The position numbers were made by a program, and so were the translations under genes. Shown piece after piece: positions 13,409-62,600 of a DNA stretch of 64,000 nucleotides. The stretch is from Metridium senile (lineage: Eukaryota > Cnidaria > Anthozoa > Actiniaria > Metridiidae). Positions within the stretch are counted from its first letter, which is position 1. Every line of letters starts with the position of its first letter. The DNA is taken from positions 8,789,655 to 8,853,654 of the forward strand of contig OX459104.1 of the NCBI GenBank assembly GCA_949775045.1, written 5' to 3'. The notes under the pieces are model-generated. The model saw nothing but the letters and a program-made list of their open reading frames with translations, ran no database searches and was not told the DNA's origin.

Positions 13409-15227
13409 TCATCCAAGTTTACACATCCTTTTGGATGCATGGTGACAGTTGTCACGCCACCAGCTATAGTACTTCCCTCCGACTTTGACAAATTTACCGA
13501 TGGTAGTACCTGGTTTGACTGGCAGTTGTTTGGATGTGGCTTTCCACTTATTGCTCATGTACTTGGGATCAACAACTACAGTCTGGCTTTTAGCGCCGAA
13601 CCTTTTGCCTTTGTGGATCAGGTATCGTTTGCCTAGCGAAGTCAAAGGAAATAATTAATAAGACGTTGCTAGTCGAGCGAGAGGCCTGTACCGGAAGATA
13701 TCAGACTAAAGTCTTGAAAGTACGTACAAAAGAGAACAGCGATTGGATTGGATTGGATGGGATGGGATGGGATTGGATGGGATTGGATGGGATGGGATGG
13801 GATGGGATGGGATGGGATGGGATGGGATGGGATGGGATGGGATGGGATAAGATGGGATATTTATTTTAAAACACACATGGCAATTTCCTATTGTTATAAA
13901 TGGTTTAACATATCAAAAACAGTTTAACTGAACGGGCTATTGATAGACTGCAGCATAGTGTTATCATTTGACTGACCTGACGCGGTAGTTACAATGACTC
14001 CAGAGTGTTTGATGCCATATTTCCCAAGCCAACCCTGTAAAGGTCGCTCTACCCTCTGAACTGAGACGACTTTAGTGTTGTAGAGTTTGGTGAGCTTCTT
14101 CTTGGAACTGATGGTGTGTGGAAGACGACGAGTTAATCTGTTATTGTATTAAATTAAATGAATAATATCAATTGTTGACGTTCGTTCTTTGTTTTAGCCA
14201 AATAGTGATCACAATAGAACCTTATTGCAAGCTATTATATTTTTTATCGAGATATTCATATATTTGTAAATTTCTTTGTATTTTTATAACAAATGTAGAG
14301 GCAGAAGTTCATAGCCAGAAGTGGTCATCTTGATTGTTAACCTATACCCTATTACAAAGATGAGCAAGTAATTTTTAGATTTGCAAGCTCAGCCAATCAT
14401 TTCGCTTTAGCGTTACAGGCGAAGCAACAATATGGCGCCTGTTACGGCCACGAAGTAAAGGCAGTGATAACTTTCTCGCTTAATTGTCAGCTACTAAAGA
14501 GGTAGATACTTTGATAGTAACAGTACTAGAAATTGAAAAGCGGGAGGACATCTTCACATCATCGGAAAACACATGTTAACATTTGGTCAGCTATCCCTCA
14601 GCTATACTTTCACGCTTAACTGCGTCTATAGAAACAAAATACGGCCTCAAAATCGTGTTTTTTCAATCTTTTCTCGAAATAATTGCAGAAAAGTAAAAAA
14701 ATGAGACCATGGATACAGCTAGATCATTTTTTTATTGACCTTATCAAGTTTTGTTGATCTACTTTCCGTGCAAAACAATACACGGACTTTTGGAGTTGAG
14801 CGAACGGTTTGTAATTGATCACTTTTACAAAAGAGATTGTACGACTATTCTCATGTCAAGTTACAATATATGGGCTTTATTCAAAATTAAACAAACCCTT
14901 TTATAAAAGTATGAATTCGAAAACATCATTCTTTTACAGACATTTTAATGTGTGATACATGGCTATGCGTGAAAAAAAACATACGTACTTTTCAAGATTT
15001 CTAATCGTTATCGCTGTATTCATTCTCTTAGGGGCCGACCATTTACCTTTTTTTTGGGGGGGGGGGGGGGGGGTGAATTTGAAAAGAAATTTCCTGCACG
15101 GCCCGAAGTGCCGAAAAAAAATTTCGTGCAAGCCAAAATTGCCACTCAAATCTTTGCTTGTCTATCAAATAAATTCCGTGCCCATGCCAGCTGGCTAAAA
15201 AAAATTTCGTGCACAAATCACCCCCTT

Positions 15228-15258
<31 letters not shown>

Positions 15259-17280
15259 AAAAGTTAAATGGTCGGCCCCTTATAGGACTCTTGTTCAAAA
15301 TCGAGCGGACAGTAGAGCGTCGAGAACTCTATGAATGATATATATTATTTTGTCGCCGGTTATGCTGTCAAAGGCTTCCTAGATGTTTACTTGTTTTTAA
15401 AAGGGAGTTTCTACTTGGAAATATCAAATGTTCAAAATCACGGAGCTGTGTTTTTTGATCAATACACTGTACCTTCGCCTGACTCTCCTGTTAAAGCGAC
15501 GCACTCTAAACCTTCAAAATACAATAAGAATGCCATAAGAAGTAGTAAAGGATAAGTCTGAAAGATGTACTGGACAAAAAATTATTAAAAAGGAAAGTGA
15601 AAAAAAAAAACTACAATCCTGTACCTTCGCCTGATTTTCCTGTTGATGCGACGCACTCGGCGACGCACTCTAAACCGTCAAAATACAATAAGAACACAAT
15701 AAGCTACAATAAAGGATAAGTTTGAAAACTGTAATGGACAAAAATTAATCAAAAAAGAAAGTCGACATGAACAAAAAAAATAAACCCTGTACCTTCGCCT
15801 GATTCTCCTGTTGATACGACGCACTCGGTGACGCACTCTAAACCTTCAAAATACAATAAGAACACAATAAGCTACAATAAAGGATAAGTATGAAAACAGT
15901 ACTAGACAAAAAAAAAAAAATCAAATCAAATAAAAAAGTCGACATGAACAAAAAAATAAATAAACCTTGTACCTTCGCCTGATTCTCCTGTTGATGCGAC
16001 GCACTCGGTGACGCACTCTAAACCTTCAAAATACAATAAGAACACAATAAGCTACAATAAAGGATAAGTTTGAAAACTGTACTGGACAAAAAAAAATCAA
16101 ATAAAAAAATCGACATGAACAAAAAAAAAAAATAAACCTTGTACCTTCGCCTGATTCTCCTGTTGATGCGTCGTACTCGATGACCAACTCTAAACCGTCA
16201 GAATACAATAAGAGCATATAAGATGTAGTAAAGGATTAGTCTGAAAACTGTACTGGACAAAACAATAATCAAATAGCTAAGTGAACCAACAAAAATAAAC
16301 ACTGTACCTTCGCCTGATTCTCCTGTTGATGCGACGCACTCGGTGACCAACTCTAACCCTTAAATAATAAGATATAAGAAAAGATAAGGATGAAAGCAGC
16401 ATCTAATTTAATAAAATAGCTATGTACATTACATGGAAAACGTTGATGACATTATATGTATCAAAAAGAAGAAAAAACAGAAATCCTCGATTCTAACTAG
16501 AAATGAGAATGAGAATGAATAAATAAATGGAAGGACGAATGAATGAATGATCGAATTAATTAATTAATTAATTAATTAATGATTGGAAGGTTGGATGAAT
16601 GAATGGTTTAATGATTGATTGATTTAATAAATTGATAAATAAATTTATGAATTAATGAGTTTTGAATATAAAATCAAACAATAACAAAAACTGGAAAAAT
16701 ATGAAAAAACAAAATGAACGAATTAAAAAAAAAAAAAAAATGAAATAAACAACAAGACAAAAAATATATACAAAACTCAAACCAGATAATAGAAATTTAC
16801 CTTCTGTATCTCCTGACGCTACGGACACTAGGGAAGAAAATTAATAAACCATAAAAAATTATTATATTGATAATCGCTCTTACACTAACTGACGACAATA
16901 CACATACCGACTGCCCCCATAGCGTCTACCTCTGAAGAACAAAACAAAAAAACAAAATTAGAAACATTAATTATATTCTTATTTTTGAATGTCTCAAGAA
17001 AAAAATTTACTTCACTGTACCAAACCAATTTAATTTAAGAAGAAGGGCTTATCGTTTATAAAACTTTTTTTTTTTTTTTCACAGTGACAAAAAAAAAATA
17101 TACAATAATAATAAATTTGTTTTCACAAACATTTAAAAAATGAACTTACCCTCCTCTCCAAGACCTCACGGACCTGCTTCCACCTCGAGAGCGGGAGCCC
17201 CACAATCCATGTGCCTCTAAGGCAAGGCAAAGAACAACGAACGCCAAAAGTACTAGCTTCAGATCAATCCGGAACTTCAT
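13409..17280 (-). CDS. Secreted Arg-rich repeat protein with C-terminal permuted NlpC/P60 (LRAT-like) domain
   Basis: Eleven exons inferred in transcription order: 17280-17150, 16931-16908, 16827-16801, 16352-16308, 16189-16145, 16017-15973, 15837-15793, 15669-15625, 15505-15473, 14137-13977, 13632-13409. All have GT/AG borders. All junctions are phase 2 except the last, which is phase 1. The frame stays open for 274 residues to TGA. The chosen start (17278-17280) gives a classic signal peptide, MKFRIDLKLVLLAFVVLCLA, cleaved near 'LEAHG'. An in-frame upstream ATG would spoil this. Residues about 26-60 are Gly/Arg/Ser/Tyr-rich. Residues about 61-147 are six units of the type VRHRVRRINRRIRRR. 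After a basic linker, residues about 166-274 hold 'GIKHSGVIV', 'YLIHKGKRFG' and 'DNCHHASKRM'. The spacing H191...C263, with Cys preceded by Asn, matches permuted NlpC/P60 folds (LRAT/HRASLS type: His first, then NC). The enzyme activity and substrate are unknown. The repeats would form a cationic amphipathic helix, suggesting polyanion or membrane binding. Confidence 0.75.
13741..13858. repeat. (GGGAT)n microsatellite in last intron of the Arg-rich gene
   Basis: About 23 copies of 'gggat', with 'ggatt' variants at the left end, lying between exons 10 and 11 of the reverse-strand gene. Confidence 0.95.
15030..15281. mobile_element. MITE with homopolymer-flanked TIRs (aggggccgaccattta)
   Basis: The left end 'aggggccgaccatttacc' is followed by a run of t then g. 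The right end carries a c run and 'taaatggtcggcccct'. The interior repeats 'aaaaaatttcgtgca'. It lies in the intron between exons 9 and 10 of the Arg-rich gene. A related start 'ggggtggaccatttgac' occurs near 6682 in the SRCR receptor. Confidence 0.75.
15473..16352 (-). repeat. Tandem array of exon-containing units (about 150-180 bp each)
   Basis: Six units each carry one small exon (five of 45 nt, one of 33 nt) plus intron sequence sharing 'caataagaacacaataagct' and 'aaaaaagtcgacatgaac'. Introns differ by indels of a few bases. Exon lengths change only by multiples of three (one exon lacks four codons). The two exons at 16308 and 16145 differ only at synonymous positions in the proposed frame. 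Confidence 0.85.
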
Positions 17281-33124: not shown

Positions 33125-34180
33125 AAAGATAATGTAATAATAATGATGATGATGTGTAATGATGATGATGCAGATGATAGTAATGATGATGATGATATGT
33201 TATGATGATGATGCAGATGATAGTAATGATGATGATATGTTATGATGATGATGCAGATGATAGTAATGATGATGATGATATGTTATGATGATGATGCAGA
33301 TGATAGTAATGATGATGATGATATGTTATGATGATGATGCAGATGATAGTAATGATGATGATGATATGTTATGATGATGATGATGCAGATGATAGTAATG
33401 ATGATGATGATATGTTATGATGATGATGATGCAGATGATAGTAATGATGATGATGATATGTTATGATGATGATGCAGATGATAGTAAAGATGATGATGAT
33501 ATGTTATGATGATGATGCAGATGATAGTAATGATGATGATATGTTATGATGATGATGATGCAGATGATAGTAATGATGATGATGATATGTTATGATGATG
33601 ATGATGCAGATGATAGTAATGATGATGATATGTTATGATGATGATGCAGATGATAGTAATGATGATGATGATATGTTATGATGATGATGCAGATGATAGT
33701 AATGATGATGATGATATGTTATGATGATGATGCAGATGATAGTAATGATGATGATATGTTATGATGATGATGCAGATGGTATGTTATGATGATGATGCAG
33801 ATGATAGTAATGATGATGATATGTAATGATGATGATGCAGATGATAGTAATGATGATGATGATATGTTATGATGATGATGCAGATGATAGTTATGATGAT
33901 GATGATATGTTATGATGATGATGCAGATGATAGTAATGATGATGATGATATGTTATGATGATGATGCAGATGATAGTAATGATGATGATGATATGTTATG
34001 ATGATGATGCAGATGGTATGTTATGATGATGATGATATGTTATGATGATGATGCAGATGATAGTAATGATGATGATATGTAATGATGATGATGCAGATGA
34101 TAGTAATGATGATGATATGTTATGATGATGATGCAGATGATAGTAATGATGATGATGCAGATGATAGTAATGATGAAGAA
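33125..34180. repeat. Minisatellite of about 42-bp unit in the 3' UTR intron of the ankyrin gene
   Basis: About 25 copies of a unit built from 'gatgatgatgcagatgat' plus 'agtaatgatgatgat' plus 'atatgttat', varying by whole ATG triplets. It begins 8 bp after a donor-like 'g|gtatga' that directly follows the stop codon. Confidence 0.92.
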
Positions 34181-40558: not shown

Positions 40559-46516
<5,958 letters not shown>

Positions 46517-50245: not shown

Positions 50246-51463
50246 TCATTTTTCCCTTTTATTCGTGGTTTCCATTGGGAGAGCGCTCACAAAACGTTTC
50301 TGTTTATTAATGTCTTGCCATGGTTGGATAGTATTTACTGGTCCACTTGACGCTAGCTTGCACGACGCACCCGATGGGTTTAACACCTTAGCTAACTGTA
50401 AATAATACAATGCAGTATGGCGACGATTCCACCCCACATGATCCATGATTTCAGAGAGGTCTGCACCTGTCAGGGCTAAGGTGATGGCGCATCCATATCT
50501 AAAGCAATGTAGTGTTTCACCGGCTTCATTTATACCCATCTCATCGAGGTATCCCTTTAATCGGGCTTCAGCTGCTGATGATGTCAACGGAGCGTCTACA
50601 ATGCCCTGTGCTGACGTCGTCGGCCGGAACAGATAGCCCCAGGTAAGATCAACGCGTATTTGCCTGGCAATATCTATATATTGTTCAATAGCCCTTATAG
50701 GGCAGATAGCAGTTTGGGGGTTTCTTCTAATTCCGAAAACATTCTGATCTCCGTCTCGTAATGTTTTACACCAGATGTGGTTGAATAATAACCCATCATC
50801 GTTTGGGAAGCGTAAGAATTCCGGGACTTTCACTCGACCCAGATCCCCGTGTCGGTCCCCACTAAAGAAAGCTGTCTTGAAGTAAGCCTGATCACATGCA
50901 ATTCTAAATCGCTCTATGGGTTTATTCACCTTCTCCAATTTACGCTGTAAATGTAGTGACAATTGCGTAAGCTTGTCGACAAAGAAAGGCGTTGCTTGCT
51001 TAGGTGTAACTCTAGCCTGGAGCTGTTCCGCAGTAACTAAACGAAGATAGTCTTTAACGCATTTATCCGCTGCTGGATTTCCTAGCCCTAATATCTTATC
51101 CCATTCTCCATCTTGACCAATCGTATGGAAAATTGCTCTCAGTTTGCCGATATATGAGTCCACCGTCTTATAAGATAGGCGCATTGGGCAACCACAATGG
51201 TGTTTTCCTTTATCTCCAATAAATTGACAACTATTTATGTGTACTTGCGTTCTACCATTGCGGTCCTTATAGATTAAGAAACGGCATATGTCCCGCTGGG
51301 TTAAAGTAGCAAGGGTTACGTTTCCCTGCAAAGCCGCTACAAACTCTTCAAGCTCTTTTTGCAATGAATCCTTTTGTTTTGCATAACTGGTTGCGCGATC
51401 GTAATTCAAAAGTTGCTGTAGCCGCTCATCGATGACATTCAAATCTATATCTACGTGATCCAC
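50246..51463 (-). CDS. Tyrosine recombinase of the retroelement
   Basis: A 405-residue uninterrupted frame. The catalytic set of tyrosine recombinases is all present: Arg204 in 'FFSGDRHGDLGRV', His319 and Arg322 in 'ETLHCFRYGC', His342 in 'MDHVGWNRRH', and Tyr353/354 in 'TALYYLQ'. The N-terminal part (about 1-150) has the helical core-binding features, with a Cys/His cluster 'CQFIGDKGKHHCGCP' at 79-93 that could bind metal. In DIRS-order elements this enzyme inserts a circular cDNA into the genome. The frame is intact although gag and RT are decayed, so the copy is young or the recombinase is maintained. No nearby promoter is evident. Confidence 0.92.
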   Translation of the reverse strand: MDHVDIDLNVIDERLQQLLNYDRATSYAKQKDSLQKELEEFVAALQGNVTLATLTQRDICRFLIYKDRNGRTQVHINSCQFIGDKGKHHCGCPMRLSYKTVDSYIGKLRAIFHTIGQDGEWDKILGLGNPAADKCVKDYLRLVTAEQLQARVTPKQATPFFVDKLTQLSLHLQRKLEKVNKPIERFRIACDQAYFKTAFFSGDRHGDLGRVKVPEFLRFPNDDGLLFNHIWCKTLRDGDQNVFGIRRNPQTAICPIRAIEQYIDIARQIRVDLTWGYLFRPTTSAQGIVDAPLTSSAAEARLKGYLDEMGINEAGETLHCFRYGCAITLALTGADLSEIMDHVGWNRRHTALYYLQLAKVLNPSGASCKLASSGPVNTIQPWQDINKQKRFVSALPMETTNKREK

Positions 51464-51775
51464 CCTTTGCCATGCAATATATCACCTTCTCTTATATCCA
51501 CAGCGCTGACAAAAACAAAAGTCTACGTCATTTGCGCGGCCATATTTTGGGCATCGTACTGAAGGGGTGAACAATTTTGCCACCATGAGAAGGTCCTACA
51601 ATACAATGTATTATATAACAGTTATTTTCTTTATTCTTATGTTGTTACACACTAGCTATTTATCATAAATATACAATAATATGCAATAAAATTGTTATTA
51701 TCTTCGTTATTCTCTGATTACCCATCGATTGTCCTACACTGTCTATATACATATATACCTAATCGAGTTCTGCAG

Positions 51776-53769: not shown

Positions 53770-54171
53770 CATTCAAAAAAAAAAAAACACACCGAAGCAA
53801 TCATTCTACATTTACTTGTCTCCTCCCTGTACACGGGAAAACTTAATTTAATGTACTATTAAAGTCATCCAACAAACACTCGCCCAAAGATTCATTCTAC
53901 AATAGTCTGCCTCCCTAGCTCTCCCTGTACGTGGGAAAATTGATTTTTCTTATATGTACTATTATAGCCATCCTATGAACACACGCCAAAGGAATCATTA
54001 ATCCACAATAGTCTGCCTCCCTGTACGCGGGAAAATCATTCACTTTTATGTACTATTATAGTCACCCAACGAACACTCGCCGAAGGAATCATTCTACAAT
54101 AGTCTGTCTCCCTGTACGCGGTAAAATCATTCACTTTTATGTACTATTATAGTCATCCAACGAACACTCCA
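53770..54171. repeat. Tandem repeat of about 91-bp unit inside the retroelement, left block (diverged)
   Basis: About four diverged copies with 'ctgcctccctgtacgcggga', 'ttttatgtactattatagtc' and 'atccaacgaacactcgcc'. They are separated from the right block by the insertion at 54172-55076. Confidence 0.88.
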
Positions 54172-55076: not shown

Positions 55077-55780
55077 GCGCCGAAGGAATCATTAATCCAC
55101 AATAGTCTGTCTCCCTGTACGCGGGAAAATCATTCACTTTTATGTACTATTATAGTCACCCAACGAACACTCGCCGAAGGAATCATTCTACAATAGTCTG
55201 CCTCCCTGTACGCGGGAAAATCATTCACTTTTATGTACTATTATAGTCATCCAACGAACACTCGCCGAAGGAATCATTAATCCACAATAGTCTGTCTCCC
55301 TGTACGCGGGAAAATCATTCACTTTTATGTACTATTATAGTCACCCAACGAACACTCGCCGAAGGAATCATTCTACAATAGTCTGCCTCCCTGTACGCGG
55401 GAAAATCATTCACTTTTATGTACTATTATAGTCATCCAACGAACACTCGCCGAAGGAATCATTAATCCACAATAGTCTGTCTCCCTGTACGCGGGAAAAT
55501 CATTCACTTTTATGTACTATTATAGTCATCCAACGAACACTCGCCGAAGGAATCATTCTACAATAGTCTGCCTCCCTGTACGCGGGAAAATCATTCACTT
55601 TTATGTACTATTATAGTCATCCAACGAACACTCGCCGAAGGAATCATTCTACAATAGTCTGCCTCCCTGTACGCGGGAAAATCATTCACTTTTATGTACT
55701 ATTATAGTCATCCAACGAACACTCTCCGAAGGAATCATTCTACAATAGCCTGCCTCCCTGGCCTGTACGCGGGAATTGTT
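55077..55780. repeat. Tandem repeat of about 91-bp unit inside the retroelement, right block (homogeneous)
   Basis: Eight near-identical units. They alternate between two subtypes, with 'attaatccacaatagtctgt' or 'attctacaatagtctgcc', in higher-order dimers. Confidence 0.92.
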
Positions 55781-56469: not shown

Positions 56470-56592
56470 CAACTGTCTGACTTGGGCGTTCTGTGGTGTC
56501 ACGCTCTATAGTCAAAACTACTTGGCAATAGGTCAAAATACGCTCTTCAAGCAAATGCACACCAACATTTCGCTCAAGCACTAAGTTTGTTT

Positions 56593-56633
56593 GCATTCGT
56601 AGGTACAGTAAACGACTGCAAATCTCAGCGAAC
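56593..56633 (+). promoter_or_regulatory. Possible 5' UTR splice acceptor just upstream of the transporter ATG
   Basis: 'tttgtttgcattcgtag' (ending 56602) is a plausible acceptor 31 bp before the ATG. If it is used, the first exon and promoter lie upstream, possibly on the far side of the retroelement. Confidence 0.3.
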
Positions 56634-59600
56634 ATGACCACTTGTCAAACGCGATTCGCTAGCTGTCGAACTAGATGCAAATCAGTCCAACGGAAGGATC
56701 TGCTTCTACCTCTGATAATCACTGGTGCAGTTCTTGGCTTTCTAATCGGCGTGTTAATAAGCAGCTCTGTCAACTCAATTGTGAATCCAGAGGAGCGCAA
56801 GACAACATTAATGCTGATTGGATTCCCGGGAGAGCTTTTGCTAAATATGCTCAAGATGATAGTGCTGCCTTTAATTGTGGCGAGCTTAATCAAAGCGTTG
56901 TCTTCACTCGATTCGACATCGACTGGAAAGATCGGACGTCGTCTGTTCTTGTACTATTTTCTTACGACAATATGTGCAAGTCTAATTGGTATGATTATGG
57001 TGGTCACTATTCGTCCTGGTAGAATTGGTAAAGAAGATACAAGTTTCTCGAATGATTCTAAGTATCGAACAATCGATTCATTCCTCGACTTATTCAGGTA
57101 AATTTATTGATTGGGTTAAGTTCTTGATAAATGCGACATTATTTTAATATGTGCAGGTGTAGTTGGTTATGACCGTAAGTATTCGCCCTGGTAGAATTGG
57201 TTCATTATTCGACTTATTCAGGTAAATCTATTTGTGGGGTTAAATTCTTGATACTGATACGACTTTAGCAAAGATATGAGACGACGTTTATTTGTTATCA
57301 CGACAACATCTTCGGTTCACTGAACAATGAAGTCAAATCGAATGGCATGTTGTAAAATCCGGACTCGGACCCAGACCAGTAGGACCTGGACCCGGACCAG
57401 GACCCGAACCCGGACTTGAAAATATAAATAAATGTATGAATAAAATAATTTCAATAATAAATAAATAAATAAACTATAAAAATGAATAAATTGAATGTAA
57501 ATTAAAAATTCAAATCATGTATTTGTAGTATAACAACGTAAATATCAGACTTGTCAGCGGATCACGGACTGACGGAACGACGGACCGTAAGGGAAATGGA
57601 GGACAACCAAAAAAAATACAAATAAAACAACAACATTGAATAATTATTTTTCGCTTCAAATCATCTCAAGCTAATCCGAGAAAATAATTACATAATCGTA
57701 ATGGAGCGGTCTAAACTGTAAGCGCTTTCAAAATGTTCTAACAATGATCCACGAGTTGGCCATAGGTGGCCTTTGATTAGTTCTTGTGACTATTATTACT
57801 ATTATTAACGGGCCAACTGGCGTATGAATTCTCTCTAGCTCAAACTAAGCAAAAACAGATGATATCTAGCATTTCGAATTAAATGTTTCTTCACATTTTT
57901 ATTCACCTTTTGCCTAAAACAAAACCCGCAGTGAAACGCTGTAAACATATTTTTGCGATCCAAAGTTTATCATGAGCTCAAGCTGTTTTGTCATGCATGA
58001 GTTCTTATCATGAGTTCCATGATAATGGGACAGCCCTATATTAAAGTCAGTGTCTATTAGTCGTGTTTATATAACTGATAACCTGTATGATGCAATTCTT
58101 CGCTTTAATATTTATAACGAAAGTTGTTAACGTGGATTTGTGACATGTGCTTATTGATTCCTGCCAGGGAAAAACCGCACGTACGAAAAGTCGCTGTACT
58201 GTAATCATATTTTCTATGTTATTTTACTTGGATGAACTCCGTAGAGGTAACACAGATATACTGTAATTGAACATTGTTTGATATGGGGAGGGGGACAGGT
58301 AACGACGTCTTTCTATTTATAGAATTACTTGCCGTGTGACCTCTACGGCAAAAGACAAAACAAGCACCCAAATTATCAGCGAATTAAGAAATCAGTAGAA
58401 AAAAAAACACGTTATTTCTATTGTTGCTTACATATTTAGAGGTCGTCCAAGTAAACTGAAAACGGCAGAAATAGTCGTGCGAAAACAAATGGTCGGTATG
58501 AATCCATTAATCGTTGTCACAATTTCATTGACAAATGATCCGTTTGTTTCGCTTAGTTTGACCTAGAGATAATTCATACACCAGTTGGCCCGTTAATAAT
58601 AGTAATACTAGTCACAAAAACCAAGAACAATAGTGTATTTAGTTAAATGGCAAAGAATTTAAAGATTGTCAGTTACATATTAATTATATAATCATTCATT
58701 CATTTATTCATTCATTCACCCATAAAGTTTTTGTTCGTTTGTTTGTATATTTATTTAATTTATTAATTTATTTGAATTAATTTATTCATTTTATAGGGTG
58801 ATATATAGACGAATAAATGAATAAACGATCGTAAAAAATGTAATGTAAACGAGACAATGTAACAAAGTCAGGGTGAATTAGAAGTAAAAGTGAGTTGTTA
58901 TACAACAAATATACATGATTTGAATTTTTAATTTACATTCAATTTATGCATTTTATAATTTATTTATTATACATTTATTTATAAATTTCAAGTCCGGGTC
59001 CGGGTCCGGGTCCGGGTCCGGGTCCGGGTCCGAGTCCAGGTTTTACAACATGCCAAATCGAAATAGAGCGATATGGTTTATACCAGCATATTTTGTTCAA
59101 AGTTTTAAGATGTTCAAATTGCGCACATTCAAAATTCCAGACGAGGATATCCGATACTTGAAAAAAATACTACTTGAGTACCTGAGTACCGCTCTTAGAT
59201 AATATATAGGAATGTAACGCAAAGAGCTTATGCCTTCACGCCATATGTCAAGGAGTCTCACTATTTTGGATGTTATCTCACAAAATAGACCAAATCGGCT
59301 AACGGGTTGCTATGTACGTTTCAACTCAATTCAAAACCTCTGGATATATAATAGCCTGATTTTCAGAGCGGGCCTGGGTCCTGCACTATCACAAAATCTT
59401 CCACGATAAGAATAAGAATCTTATATTCCAAAAATATTTAAATTGGGTCAAAACGTACATAGCAACGAGTATATGACGATTTTGTCTATCCCCGATTAAT
59501 CCACAAACCCATAGGATGTTTTTACACCTTTGGTGCCAAAGAAAAGAAAAGAAGAGAAAAATACAGAGAAGAGAAGAGAAGAGAAAAGAAGAGAAGAGAA

Positions 59601-62600
59601 GAGAAGAGAAGAGAAGAGAAGAGAAGAGAAGAGAAGAGAAGAGAAGAGAAGAGAAGAGAAGAGAAGAGAAGAGAAGAGAAGAGAAGAGAAGAGAAGTGAA
59701 GTGAAGAGAAACAAAGAAAAACAAAGAAAAGAAAAGAAAAGAAAAGAAAAGAAAAGAAAAGAAAAGAAAAGAAAAGAAAAGAAAAGAAAAGAAAAGAAAA
59801 AAAAAGAAAAGAAAAGAAAAGAAAAGAAAATCACCATGATGCCCGAATGGAATATATCCAATGATCCATTTCAGCTTCTAGATTAAACTCTTGGCTTTTT
59901 TCAGAGACAACTTTTATTGAATAACCACATTCTTTATTTTAGAAACATATTTCCAAACAACATTGTCGCTGCATGCTTTATGGGGGTGAGTATATATACT
60001 GTATTTACAGTTCACGTTTTACATTTTTTGTTGCCAACGCATCATCATAAACACCATCGTAATTATTATCATCATTATTATCATCATTATTATCATCATC
60101 ACAATCATCATCGTCATCTGCATCGCAATCATCATCATTTTAATCATCATTTGTATATTTATCATCTGTAGACAGGTTGTGAGTATGAGTAAATTAGTTT
60201 GATGTCTGCAAATTTAAGAAAGTGATTTTTTTTTCATAATCATATCCATCTTCATCATAACTATCATCATCATCAACTTCATTATCACTAGTATCATCAT
60301 CATTATAATCATTACTATCATCATCATTATCATCATCATTATCATCATCATTATCATCATCATTATCATCATCATTATAATCATTATCATCATCATCATT
60401 ATCATCATCATTATCATCATCATTATCATCAACATTATCATCAACATTATCATCATCATTATCATCATCATTATCATCATCATTATAATCATTATCATCA
60501 TCATCATTATCATCATCATTATCATCATCATTATCATCAACATTATCATCATCATTATAATCATTACTATCATCATCATTATCATCATCATTATCATCAT
60601 CATTATAATCATTACTATCATCATCATTATCATCATCATTATCATCATCATTATAATCATTATCATCATCATCATTATCATCATCATTATCATCATCATT
60701 ATCATCATCATTATTATCATCATTATAATCATTATCATCATCATCATTATCATCATCATTATCATCATCATTATCATCATCATTATCATCATCATTATCA
60801 TCATCATTATAATCATTACTATCATCATCATTATCATCATCATTATCATCATCATTATCATCATCATTATCATCATCATTATCATCATTACTATCATCAT
60901 CATTATCATCATCATTATCATCATTGTCGTCAATAGGCTTCAAGTCTACGCGACTAGTCCGAAAGGTAGCATGGGTAGAAATCACTAAAGCAGCGAATTA
61001 TTCATAATTAGTTGATTGAGTGCGCGTGGTATTGCATTAGATAATGCGCGCATTTATCCGCTCCGGTGATTTCTACCCATGCTACCTTTCGGTCTAGTCG
61101 CGTACACTTGAAGCCTATTGAAGACAATGGTTTTTGAATTGATTGTATGTATTCACCTATATTTTCCAGGTTAAAACCAAATACATGCCTTCTCCTGGTA
61201 AATACATATCCTACAACACCACTACAAACACCACAGCAACCAACCTCAAGACTTCACTCTTCACCAATGGCACCCACAATATCACTATGGTAACGCGTGA
61301 AGTCTATCCACCAACTTCCAATATCCCGGATGGAACAAAGAATTCTTGGGGTACCAATGTGGTTGGGATAACGATATTCTGTGTAGTGTTTGGAGTAGTT
61401 CTTGGTCAGCTTGGCGAGAAAGGAAAGCCGGTGAAGGATTTCTTTAGTACTCTGGATTTAATTATTATGAAGATTGTGACACTTATTATGTGGTAGGTGA
61501 CATAAACTTTATTCATAATAGTGGGTTGCCTGTGTTGAGCCTACGTTTTCTTGGTCAGTGACTATATAGTATGGGTATTCTGGCCACCATAAATTTCGTA
61601 AATCATAGTATGCAAAGTATAAGTTCAATAAAGCCAGTTAAACATGGTTACAACAGTAGGTAAGATTTGTACTCTTTTGGAACAGGGGAGGGGGGGATAA
61701 AGCATATATCAGTTTGGGCCCACAGTAGCCTGCATAGCTGGCCCTGGTGGATTGGGGAGAGAGGCGGAGGGATTGGGGAGAGGAGGAGAGGGGAAGAGAA
61801 GGAAAAAAGCGCCTGCCCGCAAGGCCATGTATTTTACATGTTTACGGTCTGATTGGCTCATTCTTGACAATTGATTGACAGATATTGGGATAGGTCATGA
61901 CGAAAACCAGAACACACTTTCATTCGGCTTCTTTGCTTGTAAACATGGCAAATGTTTATATATAGTTATGGTAGTAAACGGCGAGTATTACTCAACTTTC
62001 AAGTAAGGTAAATTCTCTTGGCCTGACGACAGCCGATCTATCCGATGAAGCGGTATGCTGTTATAATATTAGGTCCAGCGAGATTTCTCGACGAGCTGAA
62101 ACTTTTTCAATGTTCCTCAATCTAAGCTACATTTATTTCCACACTTTTTCCAAGCTAGAGTGGAATAATATAGTTATCATTTGAAGATGAAACATCGGAC
62201 TTATCAGCTTTCTTGGTGAATGATTCGAATTGTTTTTATTGCTGTATCACATGCAGCCGTTGATTCTGTGTTCTATAAATCGCTCGTAAAACCTGACTTT
62301 ATTTTTACTTGAATTAAAAGCAATTATCCCATGTCGTTCTTTGAATGTTAGATTTTCTATGAGGGTAATTGTTTTCACAAGAAATTGCGTATTGAAAGTT
62401 AAACTACTAACGTACAAACAAGGCCAGTTAGTATCAAACTGAGAAGTTCTGGTTAGCCCTTACTTCCGGTGCGCTATTATAAGTAGTGGGCGGTTAACTA
62501 AATAAGACAGCCTTGCGGGCAGGCTCTCCCTTCCTTCTCTCCCTCCTCCCCCTCCCCTCCCCTCCCCTCTCCCCCTTTTCCCCAGAGAGCCAGGGTACGC

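Follow-up and report, generated by a model that had tools for sequence, protein, structure and literature searches.

The permuted NlpC/P60 class of thiol enzymes, whose His, polar residue and Tyr come before a Cys near the C-terminus in reversal of the papain order, includes LRAT and the PLAATs (H-rev107; PF04970), the YaeF/YiiX-like enzymes (C92; YiiX 2if6, B. cereus 3kw0), the picornavirus 2A H-NC proteins (Aichivirus, parechovirus) and, by its NlpC/P60 fold, CLN5. Passages in the literature describe lipid processing by the PLAATs, identify CLN5 as the lysosomal synthase of bis(monoacylglycero)phosphate (preprint PMC13015511), and report a fatty acid bound in a hydrophobic pocket of YiiX, such pockets being a feature of the class (PMC3142127). 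Here we describe a gene in a 64-kb stretch of DNA (the window) from the sea anemone Metridium senile (contig OX459104.1), the product of which is predicted to join a signal peptide, an arginine-rich arm and a C-terminal domain of this class. The class itself is known; what is new is an apparently secreted, animal-wide family that is missing the GD and NCEHFV motifs, and an Arg arm coded by cassette exons.

On the minus strand, from 17280 to 13409, eleven exons with GT-AG introns join into an open frame of 274 residues (Table 1); exons and coordinates agree with those of an initial annotation of this DNA. From its N-terminus, the protein comprises a signal-peptide-like start, an R/S/G-rich lead-in, the products of two mini-exons and of six Arg-rich repeat exons, and the domain, which takes up about 125 residues and is encoded by exons 10 and 11. 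Use of the exon 4 acceptor TTAG/AGT, as in the other repeats, gives a product of exactly 274 residues; an alternative acceptor 6 nt upstream (exon start 16358) adds two residues, giving 276. The model is supported by independent proteins: the exon 10/11 junction is spanned, at ~70% identity, by Actinostola P0001 and Exaiptasia P0003, and Xenia P0002 and Actinia P0006 begin in a similar way, with a signal-peptide-like segment and an R/S-rich lead-in. A tblastn search of the window with pieces of the gene found nothing beyond the gene itself, and no Rfam family reached its gathering score. Intron 9 contains a 49-nt inverted repeat (15025-15073 and 15237-15285, 86% complementary) with poly-G/poly-C tracts, which looks like the remnant of a small inverted-repeat transposon.

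Searching with the domain led to proteins of Actinostola and Xenia; their alignment retrieved 165 proteins (E up to 1), the best 120 being kept, and a further search, started with the domain of Actinia, returned at least 56 matches, 38 of them new, bringing the collection to 158 relatives. Anthozoa are represented by Actinostola, Exaiptasia, Actinia, Xenia and Acropora, other invertebrates by the molluscs Mytilus and Pinctada, the annelids Paralvinella, Lamellibrachia and Pectinaria, the rotifer Adineta and the lancelet Branchiostoma, and vertebrates by the shark Rhincodon, many bony fishes and the newt Lissotriton; many relatives come from environmental contigs. The closest among the matches listed are those of Actinostola and Exaiptasia (~70% identity), and the Actinia domain is ~56% identical to that of M. 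senile. When the family alignment was used to scan prokaryote and viral contigs, there were 1 and 29 pattern matches respectively, none of them confirmed; the scans used one or two peptide patterns, which may pass over distant relatives. No paper about the family was found by title or abstract start among the matches listed, and none for six locus tags, LOC116304407 included; one paper that names a member was found. Our conclusion is that the family is apparently secreted and animal-wide, with no name found for it in the Pfam scans or the literature searches. In P0004 (Halichoeres) and P0005 (Mytilus coruscus) the domain is present in two tandem copies, or nearly so.

The domain carries H191 (in KHSGV, from K190) and C263 (in DNCHHAS), both recovered in the 274-residue product where the initial annotation had placed them. 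It also carries H207 and Y256, which are conserved across the relatives and which, like the symmetry of exons 2-9 described below, had not been remarked upon. These four residues stand in the reversed order of the permuted class. That order, H...H...Y...C, is kept in 145 of the 153 relatives with letters at all four columns, with a spacing of 16 from His to His in 146 of 151 and of 7 from Tyr to Cys in 141 of 147. Conservation of the second His was taken from all 158 relatives, a subset of 112 members having been picked for HKG. The bivalve members Pinctada P0018 and Mytilus P0091, P0110 and P0122 retain the Cys and lack the Asn preceding it.

The structure models are predictions on the relatives P0006 and P0001, not on the M. 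senile protein. In the P0006 model, strands at residues 162-172, 183-191, 196-201, 211-215 and 224-235 are followed by helices at 236-243 and 254-263, with the His on a strand and the Cys at a helix start, which is the PPNE core of five strands and two helices. The P0001 model has four strands of at least 3 residues and two helices, with the fifth strand broken up and a low-confidence hairpin ahead of the domain. The best structural neighbours of the modelled domain in the PDB belong to the permuted NlpC/P60 class, at modest scores, those of TseH, Aichivirus 2A, YiiX and PLAAT4 being tied within 1 Z; YiiX was not among the matches listed for the second model (P0001), and Foldseek alone was uninformative for the domain. 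Residue order and predicted core back the original claim that this is a secreted protein whose domain is of the permuted NlpC/P60 (LRAT-like) kind, and we predict that H191, H207 and C263 form its catalytic site, with Y256 as a fourth residue.

By sequence the domain is harder to place. A Pfam scan of the M. senile domain at E up to 10 gave no match of any kind, Pfam LRAT was not among the best 25 of the 33 families for 112 members (E up to 1), and domain searches of Pfam, NCBIfam, PHROGs and the PDB gave nothing convincing. As names for the domain, DUF3224 (best E 0.0031, 2 of 112 members), Baculoviridae AC81 (E 0.0077, 2 of 112) and Gal-bind_lectin (E 0.058, 1 of 112) were dropped as weak. 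UniRef names two fish members LRAT domain-containing.

With LRAT/PLAAT, for which we took the PLAAT layout from literature passages, the protein shares the permuted order, a His on β2, a second His on β3 and NC where the last helix begins (positions predicted here), and a Tyr ahead of the Cys. It differs in its signal-peptide-like start, in having neither a Pfam LRAT match nor GD, and in missing the C-terminal membrane anchor of PLAAT1-4, as it ends 11 residues past C263. The GD motif on β1, which a passage of PMC10318531 gives as a cluster II feature of PPNE, was found in the aligned β1 region of 1 of the 158 relatives, and that region of the M. senile protein has none. Where LRAT/PLAAT have NCEHFV, most members have NCH-x-[AG], in M. 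senile NCHHA, with the Cys-His-His order present. The YaeF/YiiX-like enzymes share the permuted fold and the conserved Tyr; their third residue, however, is Glu rather than His, lying at +15 from the first His in 3kw0 (His49, Glu64) as against +16 in M. senile, and PDB searches gave no sequence match to them. We know of no Arg arm in these enzymes. The picornavirus 2A H-NC proteins, also without a sequence match to the domain in PDB searches, are products of viral polyproteins and have no signal peptide of such a kind, while CLN5 is much larger and has no sequence match, its likeness consisting of modest structural scores.

Turning to the arm, five of its six repeat units have 15 residues with 8 or 9 Arg each, in keeping with the nine or so originally claimed, and one has 11 residues with 7 Arg. 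Tandem Repeats Finder reports the array with a period of 180, 5.1 copies and 84% matches. Given that one repeat unit uses five different Arg codons, the array reflects whole-exon duplication rather than triplet slippage or expansion. The repeat exons are under constraint, being kept better than their own introns: across units 4-8, 8 of 45 columns are variable in the exons against 52 of 105 in the ungapped intron flanks (Fisher p = 2.5e-4), gapped columns number 0 and 59 respectively, and pooled pairwise identity is 92% (414/450) in the exons, 82% (506/617) in the upstream flank and 75% (436/585) in the downstream flank.

The 86 residues of the array include 51 Arg+Lys and no acidic residue. 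Their hydrophobic periodicity is strongest at 3.75 residues, a value that none of 2000 shuffles reached in the helix range, and to this extent the hydrophobic stripe that the initial annotation drew on a helix holds for M. senile. It does not extend to Actinia, where the array peaks at 3.0 residues, with 1887 of 2000 shuffles equalling or exceeding it in the helix range, and therefore does not form one stripe on a helix. The structure model of Actinia P0006 shows the Arg array as one long helix (residues 58-122, mostly at high confidence); helix predictions for repetitive charged sequence are unreliable. Judged by sequence, what is common to both anemone arrays is Arg density and charge, rather than a conserved amphipathic helix.

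Exons 2-9 are eight consecutive symmetric exons, all of one phase and all with lengths that are multiples of 3, and therefore all 256 skipping combinations remain in frame, with computed products of 171 to 274 residues. Such lengths in eight of eight inner exons would arise in 1 of 6561 cases at random, a figure that ignores the shared length of duplicates. The donors of the six repeat exons are GTACA-type and lack the G that is usual at +5; the donors of exons 1, 2 and 10 have that G, and the donor of exon 3 does not. The weak donors of the repeat exons are consistent with their optional inclusion. The annotated isoforms X3 (P0121, 285 aa) and X10 (P0006, 267 aa) of Actinia tenebrosa LOC116304407 differ by exactly 18 residues, equal to two 9-aa Arg units, and in array length only. 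We infer from the predicted exons that skipping or inclusion of cassettes may change both the length and the charge of the arm.

The Actinia isoforms have the layout of the M. senile protein, namely a signal-peptide-like start, an R/S-rich lead-in, a strongly Arg-rich array and the same C-terminal domain. Thus the combination, which had been thought undescribed, is present in annotated though uncharacterised proteins, for whose locus tag no paper was found. Their array differs in being built of a 9-aa unit, RRYRRVRRV (period 3), in place of 15 aa (period 3.75), and they have additional KGWFSKSGRK-type repeats. Xenia has a shorter R/S-rich stretch, and the proteins checked from annelids (three) and a sturgeon (one) have short Arg-containing linkers only; the Actinostola gene model P0001 is without an Arg-rich start, and the Exaiptasia model P0003 is partial.

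Our reading of these results is that the gene encodes a secreted permuted NlpC/P60 (H-NC, LRAT-like) thiol enzyme for acyl hydrolysis or transfer, with a cassette-coded Arg arm that docks on anionic surfaces. We put this forward tentatively, considering the chance that it is right to be close to even. The predicted signal peptide would send the protein to secretion, the arm would dock it on microbial membranes, acidic lipid membranes or other anionic surfaces, the docked domain would hydrolyse or transfer an acyl group, and the choice of cassettes would tune arm length and charge. A lipid or lipo-amide substrate may be expected by analogy with the class, given its hydrophobic pockets and the processing of lipids by its animal members PLAAT and CLN5. 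A role in host defence is suggested by the cationic arm together with the zebrafish member LOC101883708 (P0136), which a passage of PMC11505477 names as one of several new potential markers for macrophage-like cells of the kidney.

There are other possible explanations. One, which we think unlikely, is that the Arg array is a precursor cut by furin-like proteases into short cationic antimicrobial peptides, the domain being a partner or pro-domain. The 90-residue array does contain 12 RX[KR]R motifs, and residues 61-130 of Actinia P0121 contain 15; the basic composition given above, free of acidic residues, also favours such a precursor, as do the cationic KGWFSKSGRK-type repeats of Actinia, whose helix-range periodicity is reached by 7 of 2000 shuffles. 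However, the domain is unlikely to be a mere pro-domain, given that nearly all relatives retain the four candidate catalytic residues, and that in the non-anthozoans checked among them only short linkers replace the array. The use of 15-aa and 9-aa units in the two anemones further suggests weak constraint on the exact peptide. We consider it improbable that the domain is instead a secreted amidase or peptidase, comparable to canonical NlpC/P60 enzymes or Tae/Dae, acting on peptidoglycan or a peptide-like polymer while the arm binds the anionic bacterial wall: the catalytic order is the permuted one, for which the animal members so far characterised (LRAT, PLAAT and CLN5) have lipid substrates, and TseH is not singled out, since its score ties with three others. 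The GTACA-type donors and the Actinostola model might make one suspect that only the domain is a working product, the Arg mini-exons being rarely spliced in, or an illusion created by gene prediction across a tandem repeat. This we find very hard to accept, given that the exons are better conserved than the introns, with zero indels among units 4-8, that annotated Actinia isoforms have such an array, and that each of the inner exons 2-9 has a length divisible by 3. Scarcely credible to us is the link first proposed, in which the arm condenses an acidic polymer of nematocysts or mucus, such as poly-gamma-glutamate, for the domain to trim or cross-link: the arm is strongly positive and canonical NlpC/P60 enzymes can cut gamma-glutamyl bonds (a passage of PMC3142127), but that specificity is described, in the passages concerned, for the non-permuted branch, titles and abstract starts among the matches listed make no link between NlpC/P60 and poly-gamma-glutamate, and the family is present in a newt and in fishes, mussels and other molluscs, and annelids, the last three groups being without nematocysts of their own.

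Table 1. Exons of the M. senile gene and the repeat array they span (positions within the window)
Feature	Position	Strand	Remarks
Exon 1	17150..17280	-	Start codon, signal-peptide-like segment MKFRIDLKLVLLAFVVLCLALEAHG, R/S/G-rich lead-in; donor AGG/GTAAGT; start region aligns to Xenia P0002 and Actinia P0006/P0121
Exon 2	16908..16931	-	24 nt; symmetric phase
Exon 3	16801..16827	-	27 nt, 9 aa; module of the type VRSVRRYRR, similar to RRYRRVRRV, the 9-aa Actinia unit
Exon 4	16308..16352	-	Arg repeat 1; 45 nt, 15 aa
Exon 5	16145..16189	-	Arg repeat 2; 45 nt
Exon 6	15973..16017	-	Arg repeat 3; 45 nt
Exon 7	15793..15837	-	Arg repeat 4; 45 nt
Exon 8	15625..15669	-	Arg repeat 5; 45 nt
Exon 9	15473..15505	-	Shortened Arg repeat 6; 33 nt, 11 aa
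Exon 10	13977..14137	-	First half of enzyme-like domain; predicted strands β1-β2, H191
Exon 11	13409..13632	-	Second half of domain; H207, Y256, N262-C263, stop codon
Tandem array	15498..16369	-	~180-bp units, one repeat exon plus intron each; Tandem Repeats Finder

Elsewhere in the window, exons of a glycoside hydrolase family 9 cellulase lie on the plus strand at 40559-41221, 44303-44803 and 46016-46513 (Pfam E 2e-10 to 2.9e-49), the first also carrying a CBM2 cellulose-binding domain (E 3e-6); they probably belong to an endogenous animal cellulase gene. A frame of 411 residues on the minus strand (50249-51481), which has an ALOG domain (E 5e-23) as well as a match to phage integrase that stays below the cut-off (E 5.2e-5), looks like a DIRS/Crypton-type tyrosine recombinase, and a sodium:dicarboxylate symporter fragment (SDF, E 1e-21) is found at 56532-57098 on the plus strand. 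Satellite-like repeats occur as a 43-bp unit x24 (33138-34176), a 91-bp unit in two blocks (53822-54169 and 55078-55760) and an ATC-rich 12-bp unit (60248-60924).

Returning to the secreted thiol enzyme with its Arg arm, the family to which it belongs is conserved and apparently secreted, from corals to fishes, and its predicted active site is conserved too. Should the family prove active, the class, whose animal members so far known work on membrane lipids, would gain a secreted branch, and the macrophage-like cells of the zebrafish are the first cell-type clue for the family. The mini-exons appear to have been expanded with different units in the two anemones, and the anemone gene is a clean case of protein charge possibly being set by the number of in-frame mini-exons. 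A wider interpretation, which we regard as doubtful, is that these secreted thiol enzymes of the H-NC (LRAT-type) kind, spread across animals, work in innate defence, and that in anemones the repeated duplication of tiny in-frame exons produced a splice-tunable polyarginine arm that sets the strength of binding to anionic surfaces of microbes or lipids. If true, this would combine an acyl-cutting secreted enzyme and a cationic peptide in one adjustable molecule.
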